A stretch of 28,947 nucleotides of DNA from a virus. The stretch's first letter is position 1. Each line of letters begins with the position of its first letter. This document shows, in pieces, positions 1,312 through 4,195 of the stretch. The stretch is from IMG/VR virus record IMGVR_UViG_3300037264_000614, positions 1-28,947 of that record. The stretch is one strand, 5' to 3'. The notes under the pieces were generated by a model. The model was not told where the DNA came from. It ran no database searches and saw nothing but the letters and a program-made list of their open reading frames with translations. The position numbers and the translations under genes were made by a program.

Positions 1312-3258
1312 TTAGGCTGGGGAGTATTCCCGGTCTCTCGACCTGAGATAGCTGGACTCCCCGCTGCGTGGCGAAGGCATATTCTGGTGGATAGAAGAGG
1401 AGTTTCTGTTGTTGTGGACTGTGTTGTTTACCACGGTTGGCGCTGAGATCGAGGCTCCACCCGGACCTGTCGCGTTGCGTTGCATATCGTTTGCCTGTGA
1501 GAGGTTTTGTCCTGTCATAGGCGCCGGGGCTGGTAACTCGGTGGGTGGAACCGCATTGGTTAACGCTGCTAATTGCTGAGGTACATTAGGTGCTGCGGTT
1601 GGAACTTGTCCGTAAGCTGTTGGGGTCATTGCTGGTGCTGCTGTAGCTGTCCCAGTTTGTGCTCCAACAATCGCATCCAATTTTGCTGCATCGCTCTCGT
1701 TGCTGACCTGTGTAGGGCTGTCTGATTTCGCCTTGGATTCTCCAGTGAGCCAATCTGACACTGATTCTTTGGCCATCGTCATGAGGCTTGGCAGCCGCTC
1801 TTTATTCAACGGATCGGTGAATGGGTCGGCATTATAAATTTCCATGTATGCGTCACGGACCAAGGAAGCGACCAGGGATGGAATCGCAGCACCCGGTATT
1901 GGAAGTGCTCCAGCCGCGTCAATACCCGCTCCGATCAAATCCCCTTGGAGTAAGCGACTCGCTGCGAACGCAAGACCCACAGCAGACCCGACAATGGGAA
2001 TCATTGTCGCAGCTTTGGACTTGAGTAACTTTGGTGCCAGTTTTCCGAGAACACCTGCGATCTTTCCCTTATCAGCTATTTTTGCAGCACCCTCGGCGAC
2101 GGTTCCAGCCCCCTTTGCGATCTTTGACGCCGCCCCCAGTTCTTTAGCCGCGACCGTGCCGCCGGTTGCTGCGGCCGCCTTCCCCACTCCACCCACAACC
2201 TTTTCAGCAATACCCTTGATACCACCAATGATGGATTTTCCACCTTTGAGGATTGCAGACCCTCCAGCTTTTGCAGCACCAACCACCCCACCAGCTAATG
2301 CCTTGATTCCAGCAGTGAGACCCATGGTGCCAGCCATTCTTCCGAGGAGCCCAGTAAAGATCGAAAAGGGGTTCAAGACTTTGCTTAGTATTCCAGCAAA
2401 TGCCAGCGCAGCAAGACCGAGTTTTTTCAACCAACCCATGATGGTTTCCAACCAACTTTTTCCAGGTTCTTTTTTCTCTTCTCCGGCTTTGGTGACTGGG
2501 GTGGGTTCTTTCTTCTTGATCTTGGCTCTCTCAAGGGCAGCTTCATCGTGCATTCGTTCCATGCTGATTGCTTGCCGTTCAGCAAGTTCGGTGCTTTCTT
2601 TTTCAAACTCCCTTATCTTTTCAACGTCACCCGACATGTTGGTGAGTTTGTCGAGAATCTTAACAAGGGTCACAGACATTTGCTGAAGGAGATTGGTGGA
2701 TTCCCCACCGGTGACCTGAGTTGGACTATCTGTTTGATCTAGCGTAGCCGGAGTTGGTGCCTGTGTGTCCATTCCTGGCAAACCCGCAGCGGTTCGTATG
2801 GATTTCTCTGAACGACCCATAGCACGACCAGCAAGTGCGGTTGCAAGCTTTGAGCCACCGGTCATGCGGTGTATGATGTTGAGGGGATCAAATTTCTTTT
2901 TGAATGCGGTCTTGGCTTTCTCCGCCTTGAATGACAGGGCTCCTTTGGCCGCTCCAGCTAGACTTCCGCCACCCGCAAGAATGTCGGCCGCGACCCCGCC
3001 CGCCGTAGTCTCGCGGTGTGTGGTCGGAGCGATCTGTGCTTTGATATTTTTTAGGGCGTCAAGAATCTGTTTTTTGGTTTCTTTTCCAAGTTCAATCTGG
3101 GCAGCCTGGGCCCTGGGTGGAGTGGTTTTGTGGGCATGGCTGATCTCTGCCTTGGCCACTCTTGCTACAGGTTCGGTATTCTCGACGATTTTGTCGAGGC
3201 TTTTGTGCATCTCACCGAATTGGTCTTTGAGGTCTTGGAGTGGGTCTTGCTCTGCCAT
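1312..3258 (-). CDS. Probable tail tape measure protein (gp29 position)
   Basis: A 648-residue protein. AAGGAA lies upstream of the ATG at 3258, and the ATG overlaps the preceding stop (TAATG). The N-terminal ~110 residues are charged and helical. Residues ~190-260 look like a coiled coil rich in K, E and R. From ~275 to ~485 there are long Ala/Gly-rich hydrophobic segments, including a run around LAALAFAGILSKVL. The C-terminal ~130 residues are Pro/Ala/Thr-rich and polar. Helical rods with hydrophobic stretches are typical of tape measures, which set tail length and are ejected with the DNA. T4 gp29 is of similar size (about 590 residues). The strongest argument is position: it directly follows the gp26 and frameshift genes, where tail-assembly chaperones precede the tape measure in many phages. 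I see no specific family motif, so this is inferred from composition and context. Confidence 0.65.
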   Translation of the reverse strand: MAEQDPLQDLKDQFGEMHKSLDKIVENTEPVARVAKAEISHAHKTTPPRAQAAQIELGKETKKQILDALKNIKAQIAPTTHRETTAGGVAADILAGGGSLAGAAKGALSFKAEKAKTAFKKKFDPLNIIHRMTGGSKLATALAGRAMGRSEKSIRTAAGLPGMDTQAPTPATLDQTDSPTQVTGGESTNLLQQMSVTLVKILDKLTNMSGDVEKIREFEKESTELAERQAISMERMHDEAALERAKIKKKEPTPVTKAGEEKKEPGKSWLETIMGWLKKLGLAALAFAGILSKVLNPFSIFTGLLGRMAGTMGLTAGIKALAGGVVGAAKAGGSAILKGGKSIIGGIKGIAEKVVGGVGKAAAATGGTVAAKELGAASKIAKGAGTVAEGAAKIADKGKIAGVLGKLAPKLLKSKAATMIPIVGSAVGLAFAASRLLQGDLIGAGIDAAGALPIPGAAIPSLVASLVRDAYMEIYNADPFTDPLNKERLPSLMTMAKESVSDWLTGESKAKSDSPTQVSNESDAAKLDAIVGAQTGTATAAPAMTPTAYGQVPTAAPNVPQQLAALTNAVPPTELPAPAPMTGQNLSQANDMQRNATGPGGASISAPTVVNNTVHNNRNSSSIHQNMPSPRSGESSYLRSRDREYSPA

Positions 3259-3530
3259 TAGCGTTTCCTTTGTGCGTTCAAAGCCTTGATTCTCGCGTTT
3301 TCCTTTTCCACACGTTGCTGGACAAGAGCCAAATAGATCAAGCGTTCCCAGGGCAAGAGGTTTTCAAGCTCGGAAATCGTAAATTTATGATCCTGAACCA
3401 AAGCGAATGTTGTTGTGTAGTAATTCGCTAGGTTATCGTGGCTCAGGACGATCCGAAAAAATGGTCTAGCCCACTCACTACAATTTCCTCTTGGTGACCA
3501 CACTTTGGGCACTTGAACGCGATGGGGCAT
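3258..3530 (-). CDS. 51: gp51-like small chaperone frame, probably made only as a -1 frameshift extension of gp26
   Basis: The open frame runs from 3530 to the stop at 3260-3258, but its first ~88 bases lie inside gp26 in another frame. The residues encoded there (MPHRVQVPKVWSPRG...) look like meaningless read-through. The plausible protein is the last 65 residues, from CGG at 3455, beginning RIVLSHDNLANYY and continuing with HKFTISELENLLPWER and a charged helical tail. The FxLxxHxKxSxxELENLxPWER style matches my memory of short gp51 or hub-assembly proteins of distant T4-type phages. No ATG and no ribosome-binding site precede the conserved part. Instead a slippery T TTT TTC in gp26 leads into this frame (see 3455-3461), giving a 312-residue fusion. 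Its stop overlaps the tape-measure start. The gp51 name is by position and resemblance only. Confidence 0.65.
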   Translation of the reverse strand: MPHRVQVPKVWSPRGNCSEWARPFFRIVLSHDNLANYYTTTFALVQDHKFTISELENLLPWERLIYLALVQQRVEKENARIKALNAQRKR

Positions 3531-4195
3531 TCAATCTTCGGCATCGTGTCGAAAAAGTGGTCCATCTTTTCGACTTGTTCATGGTTTAGGTCATTGACAA
3601 ACTCAACCACCTCTTCCACAGGAACGTCCTTGGTCAGCACCACGTTGTTGGTGTCGTTGATCGACTCGATGCACTGTACCAAGAATGCGAATGCTTCGTC
3701 AGCGGGAAGGTCCTTTCGCGCAATGGTGCGGAACGCCTTGAAGGTCGGATACCTGAGCGTGATGCCTACTGCATCTGTTAATTGGATGTATTTGTTGTGC
3801 CCCTCGCCAAACTTAGGCTTGATTTCCAACAGATCAATTGGATACTCTGAAATCGTACCACAGACCGAGGTATTACCTGTGTTCGCATCTGTGACCTGCT
3901 GATTACACTTGTACCGTAGGTTGATTTTCTCCCCGATACTTCGCGCTCGAATGTTCAGGAACAAAAACTCCACATCGAACAGTGGCAGCTTGTCAATGTC
4001 GATGCGCGACACTGAGCCCACACAGTTCTCAAGAATTTGCTTGGCGGTCGTGACAATCGACTCCGTATCATCCGATTGCATCGCAATCAGAAGTAACTTT
4101 TCTTCCTTGACGAGAAAGGGTCTGAACGAGACCTTTGTACCAGATGGGCACACCACGTCATAGAATGGAACATTGAGTTTGGGTAACGTAGACAT
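3443..4195 (-). CDS. 26: gp26-like baseplate hub protein / tail-assembly chaperone
   Basis: A 250-residue protein starting at ATG 4195, with GGAG six bases upstream. It resembles the T4 gp26 baseplate family (PF12322-type): an N-terminal LPKLNVPFYDV and VSFRPFLVKEEKLLL block, then a helical segment, then KYIQLTDAVGITLRYPT. Four cysteines (in YKCN, SVCG and KCPKCGH) could form a split zinc ribbon. In T4, gp26 is needed to assemble the baseplate hub. Here it lies between gp48 and the tape measure on the minus strand. It carries a slippery heptamer three codons before its stop, so two products are expected: this one, ending HFFGSS, and a longer fusion (residues 1-247 plus 65). That pair looks like the G/GT tail-assembly chaperones of other tailed phages, which suggests a chaperone role rather than a stable hub part. 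Confidence 0.8.
   Translation of the reverse strand: MSTLPKLNVPFYDVVCPSGTKVSFRPFLVKEEKLLLIAMQSDDTESIVTTAKQILENCVGSVSRIDIDKLPLFDVEFLFLNIRARSIGEKINLRYKCNQQVTDANTGNTSVCGTISEYPIDLLEIKPKFGEGHNKYIQLTDAVGITLRYPTFKAFRTIARKDLPADEAFAFLVQCIESINDTNNVVLTKDVPVEEVVEFVNDLNHEQVEKMDHFFDTMPKIECPIAFKCPKCGHQEEIVVSGLDHFFGSS
3455..3461 (-). promoter_or_regulatory. Canonical -1 ribosomal frameshift heptamer T TTT TTC
   Basis: On the minus strand gp26 reads CAT TTT TTC GGA TCG TCC TGA, so the heptamer T TTT TTC sits in the X XXY YYZ register three codons before the stop. Slipping back one base gives TTT TTT CGG ATC GTC, the exact frame of the downstream 65-residue segment. A weak hairpin follows: ATCGT (3452-3448) can pair with ACGAT (3439-3435), closed by two further G-C pairs across an AA bulge. 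Slippage efficiency cannot be judged from sequence. Confidence 0.75.

Follow-up and report, generated by a model that had tools for sequence, protein, structure and literature searches.

According to a standard review, the frameshift that yields the G and GT proteins is kept widely among long-tailed phages, 'except T4' (PMC5009743). The mechanism itself is already known from lambda, HK97, P2 and others. Whether T4-type phages really stand apart is the question raised by a locus in IMG/VR virus record IMGVR_UViG_3300037264_000614, of which positions 1 to 28,947 were analysed as a single window of 28,947 nucleotides. On the minus strand of this window the gene gp26 runs into a gp51-like reading frame, hereafter the T segment, and an earlier note on this DNA proposed that the two are joined by a programmed -1 frameshift. 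We conclude, with a probability of about 0.88, that gp26 is a frameshifting gene giving two products, a lambda-style chaperone pair whose long form is the fusion with the T segment.

The junction between gp26 and the T segment

The gp26 gene (3443-4195, minus strand, 250 amino acids) matches PF12322 at 4.9e-59, with 200 bits in the profile search for a curated cut-off of 24.5, and phrog_150 at 4.1e-67. Near its end lies the heptamer T TTT TTC (3455-3461), in the X XXY YYZ register of a slippery site; the gp26 frame then continues as GGA TCG TCC TGA, with nine bases between the heptamer and the TGA stop (3443-3445). Shifted back by one base, the frame reads TTT TTT CGG ATC, runs for 65 residues beyond the two phenylalanines and ends in a TAA (3260-3258) that overlaps the ATG of the next gene (3258) as TAATG. 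Direct reading thus agrees with the earlier note on the site, its register close to the gp26 stop, and the length and end of the -1 frame. The T segment (3258-3455, 65 residues and a stop) matches phrog_634, named 'baseplate hub assembly catalyst' (gp51), at 1.3e-22; a Pfam search with it gave no meaningful match. Because it also matches the C-terminal part of the phrog_150 profile (positions 230-278 of 282), natural in-frame fused forms exist. The predicted gp26-gp51 fusion (3258-4195) would comprise 247 + 65 = 312 amino acids.

Searches with tblastn found relatives of gp26 in 1,481 phage records and of the T segment in 639. We compared 86 IMG/VR loci and cultured cyanophages, together with further cultured phages of Vibrio, Aeromonas, Rhizobium, Caulobacter, Desulfovibrio, Pelagibacter, Delftia, Stenotrophomonas and Pseudomonas hosts; for heptamer counts near-duplicates were removed, leaving 98 nonredundant relatives. 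The T segment lies in the -1 frame in all relatives with a readable junction, and T TTT TTN stands in slip register at the end of gp26 in 96 of the 98, with C as its last base in 66, T in 27, A in two and G in one. The codon preceding the phenylalanine pair ends in T without exception (AGT, GAT, AAT, TCT, GCT, CAT or GGT). Since Phe-Phe pairs elsewhere in the same genes are coded T TTT TT in 3 of 105 cases (Fisher p = 1e-51, a nominal value as the sequences are related), a chance origin of the heptamer is excluded. The conservation of heptamer and overlap register that the earlier note had looked for at the gp26/gp51 junction of T4-type relatives is therefore present in these 96, and the converse case it had described, relatives in which both genes occur, the slippery site is missing and the second gene has a proper start of its own, was not encountered among them.

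The -1 frame evolves as a protein. Its ratio of nonsynonymous to synonymous substitution rates (dN/dS), taken within the clade of the window, is 0.14, against values of about 1 or higher for the two remaining frames, both of which contain stops; the T segment is under purifying selection. The open reading frame (ORF) spans 58-82 codons in 99 of the 99 loci that hold it complete. Constraint extends into the overlap: the first -1 residue after the two phenylalanines is arginine at 60 of the 66 TTTTTTC loci, upstream of any possible ATG, and the residue that follows is I, L, V or M in nearly all loci, whereas the gp26-frame residue at the same overlap varies (G, A, V or E).

Two further elements, absent from the earlier note, fit bacterial -1 frameshifting. 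Upstream, pairing with the anti-Shine-Dalgarno sequence peaks in the relatives at a hexamer ending 9 nucleotides before the heptamer (mean -5.3 kcal/mol); it is near zero at 3 and 14 nucleotides, and the peak exceeds that of synonymous-codon shuffles. This Shine-Dalgarno (SD)-like element is strong in most relatives, and its site in the window is at 3471-3476 (minus strand). Downstream, a predicted hairpin with an 11-bp outer and a 7-bp inner stem (3390-3449, minus strand), whose stem contains the gp26 stop, starts 5 nucleotides past the heptamer, with a minimum free energy of -20.9 kcal/mol (z -6.57; none of 200 shuffles as stable). Over 93 relatives the mean folding z-score peaks at this offset (-1.52), with values of -0.75 and -0.80 in two overlapping flanking intervals and of -0.62 or weaker elsewhere between -300 and +180. 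The hairpin sequence differs between lineages, and the hairpin itself is likely to be real. The arrangement resembles the frameshift cassette of Escherichia coli dnaX, in which an SD-like element precedes the slippery heptamer and a hairpin follows at short spacing; it differs in the heptamer, U UUU UUY here and A AAA AAG in dnaX, and in its product, here a presumed phage assembly protein.

Probable kinship with tail-assembly chaperones

The AlphaFold2 model of gp26, built from 79 sequences, has a mean predicted local distance difference test score (pLDDT) of 92.7. Among 964 chains (the top Foldseek chains, re-aligned), the best matches of residues 1-89 are YqbN (3klu, Z 7.0), which we take to be a member of the XkdN-type chaperones, and the HK97 tail assembly chaperone (2ob9, Z 6.8); the next-ranked structure reaches Z 3.0. 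Foldseek alone against the PDB gave no significant match, HK97 gp13 having the highest probability (0.51) among the matches listed, and a sequence search among solved structures found no homologue. The GenBank record of HK97 annotates gp13 as the shorter of two proteins produced through a -1 frameshift. At moderate Z, the model supports a tail-assembly chaperone fold for the N-terminal domain of gp26 (residues 1-89). The T segment is predicted to be helical at moderate confidence (pLDDT 79). The fold match, the HK97 gp13 record and the composition of T4 gp51 described below speak for the earlier note's proposal that gp26 and gp51 form a G/GT-like pair of 250 and 312 residues.

By eye, the HK97 T part (LALRMGRTLSELRQNMTASELLMWIEY; L114:484-846) resembles the T segment of the window (FALVQDHKFTISELENLLPWERLIYLAL; 3258-3455), a likeness to which profile comparison gives no support. 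gp26 itself (3446-4195) carries zinc-ribbon-like CxxC pairs at residues 97-112 and 227-241, with CPKC near residue 229; the pairs are lost in many cyanophage relatives, and matches to zinc-ribbon profiles are weak.

With lambda G/GT and HK97 gp13/gp14 the locus shares a short product with a predicted -1 extension, next to what is here a presumed tape measure gene, and a slippery heptamer shortly ahead of the 0-frame stop, and with HK97 gp13 the predicted fold of the gp26 N-terminal domain. It differs in size, gp26 having about 250 amino acids and an extra C-terminal half where the lambda and HK97 short products have 140 and 128, in its slip site (U UUU UUY versus G GGA AAG), and in showing no detectable sequence similarity in either G or T.

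That ribosomes slip here, how often they do so and that the products act as chaperones are inferences from these features, and the lambda system suggests how the products would work. Most ribosomes would terminate at 3443 and yield gp26, the G-like product. A minority would be held up by the hairpin, and in most relatives by the SD-like element too; these ribosomes would move one base backwards at U UUU UUC and continue to 3258, giving the GT-like fusion. By analogy with lambda G/GT, many short copies would coat the tape measure, a few long copies would use the T segment to bring in tail-tube subunits, and both products would depart before the tail is complete.

It is also conceivable, though unlikely, that the fusion is real and that gp26 and gp51 are structural hub proteins, not a tail-assembly chaperone pair. 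Older T4 genetics, as cited in a review of the T4 tail, put gp26 in the hub (PMC3004832), and database names label the family 'baseplate hub'. The same review, however, counts both proteins among the hub assembly chaperones, with gp51 outside the particle (PMC3004832), and the fold matches of the N-terminal domain are tail-assembly chaperones.

Other possible routes to the T segment

Public records annotate the T segment of many phages as a separate small gene, gp51. Ribosomes might re-initiate on it where its start codon overlaps with the stop of gp26 (TAATG or TGATG). Of 92 complete loci, 38 do have an ATG close to the junction, often overlapping the stop (as in L093, L095, L098, L103 and L105), but it is accompanied by an SD-like sequence in 6; the T segment has no ATG, GTG or TTG start at 33 of the 92, and 21 more have GTG or TTG only. 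The slip heptamer is retained in the ATG-bearing loci, and the window has no ATG at the overlap. The clearest test is the constraint on the -1 frame before the gp26 stop: arginine follows the two phenylalanines in 22 of the 24 loci with an ATG at that stop as well. Start codons often being absent and the arginine constraint lying upstream of the ATG, re-initiation as the sole route is rejected for most loci, and as an account of the locus it is very improbable. The earlier note had stated that the T segment has no start of its own, which needs qualification: an ATG stands in the -1 frame at 3530, inside gp26 and 69 nucleotides upstream of the heptamer, with GTGs further downstream. That ATG has no SD-like sequence and is not conserved, the -1 frame being closed by a stop immediately ahead of the heptamer in relatives such as L007 and L008; it was rejected as an internal start. 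As far as the aligned loci tell, the conserved -1 ORF is an extension of gp26 with no independent start.

Polymerase slippage on the T6/T7 run, giving mixed mRNAs that encode the fusion, could draw on the T7 or longer run at 27 of 98 loci, but 66 of the 98 have just six T and then C, a run short for known polymerase slippage. Neither the SD-like element nor the hairpin, both spaced as for a slipping ribosome, would have a role in it, and we regard it as barely credible.

Several observations nevertheless weigh against a frameshifting chaperone gene. Four Ackermannviridae-type relatives lack the full heptamer at the end of gp26 (SJ2, ZQ1, D507 and V1244; L102:3205-3300, L104:3034-3120, L110:2762-2850 and L111:2588-2680) and have ATT TTC or CTT TTY in its place, with the T segment still in the -1 frame; an ATG overlaps the stop in three of them and not in SJ2 (L102). 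In these phages a weaker slip site, or else re-initiation, may serve instead. The SD-like element of the window, GAGTGG, is weak (-2.2 kcal/mol), and a covariation test within the window's clade found compensatory change in the hairpin no higher than in shuffles. The structural Z of about 7 is below the aligner's own safe level, and hhalign, run on sequence profiles, links neither G nor T with HK97 or lambda, a comparison limited for T by parts that are short and fast-evolving.

The neighbourhood adds to these points. The next gene (1312-3258, minus strand, 648 amino acids; relatives in L007-L011), which the earlier note called the tape measure, has the size, position and TAATG overlap of one; profile searches gave it no significant family match, and it is presumed to be the tape measure from position and size. 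In the closest relative (L006; 9-239, 3941-4537) the frameshift unit is not beside the tape-measure homologue: the start of that gene is at another place, on the opposite strand, and the T segment is followed by a different gene. The unit is kept there despite the changed gene order. In HTVC008M and Cr30 the tape measure comes one small ORF after the unit.

The T-even phages and the reported T4 exception

Genes 26 and 51 of T4 itself are separate. The T4 tail review describes gp51 as essential and of unknown function (PMC3004832). In our comparison T4 gp26 (208 amino acids) and gp51 (249 amino acids) both belong to PF12322 (8.8e-64 and 3.9e-52) and match each other by BLASTP at 2e-6. T4 gp51 also carries the T segment found in the window, reaching position 280 of 282 in phrog_150 and matching phrog_634 at 1.2e-23. 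By these matches the two T4 proteins are paralogues, gp51 being composed of a gp26-like domain with the T segment in frame. In T4, Aes012, 44RR and CIP9 gp26 and gp51 are encoded by distinct genes lying on opposite strands, and neither T4 gene has the heptamer at the junction position. What the other lineages would make from one frameshifting gene, the T-evens would therefore make, as short and long form, from two paralogous genes, and they have probably replaced a single frameshifting gene by this pair. In a G-domain tree the T-even gp26 proteins form one monophyletic group (100/100) and the T-even gp51 proteins another (100/100); because their branches are long and they are not sisters, the tree neither dates the duplication nor gives the ancestral state. 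The gp26 proteins of Aeromonas T-evens (L106:1762-2367, L108:1258-1872) are set apart in the gp26 tree by a very long branch, and that of Aes012 has lost the GL..FF tail, as if freed from the constraint of a slip site.

The earlier note knew of no such frameshift in T4-type phages, and a search of the open-access literature, with subscription papers and preprints outside its range, likewise found no description of one at gp26/gp51. We consider it likely that the T4 superfamily is not an exception to G/GT frameshifting. The predicted frameshift is present in most of the non-T-even T4-type lineages sampled, marine cyanophages included. Cyanophage gp51 has been reported as apparently truncated to about 20% of its T4 length (PMC3037559); its shortness would be explained if it represents no more than the T portion of a fused protein. 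If the frameshift is confirmed, the annotation of gp26 and gp51 would be corrected in hundreds of phage records.
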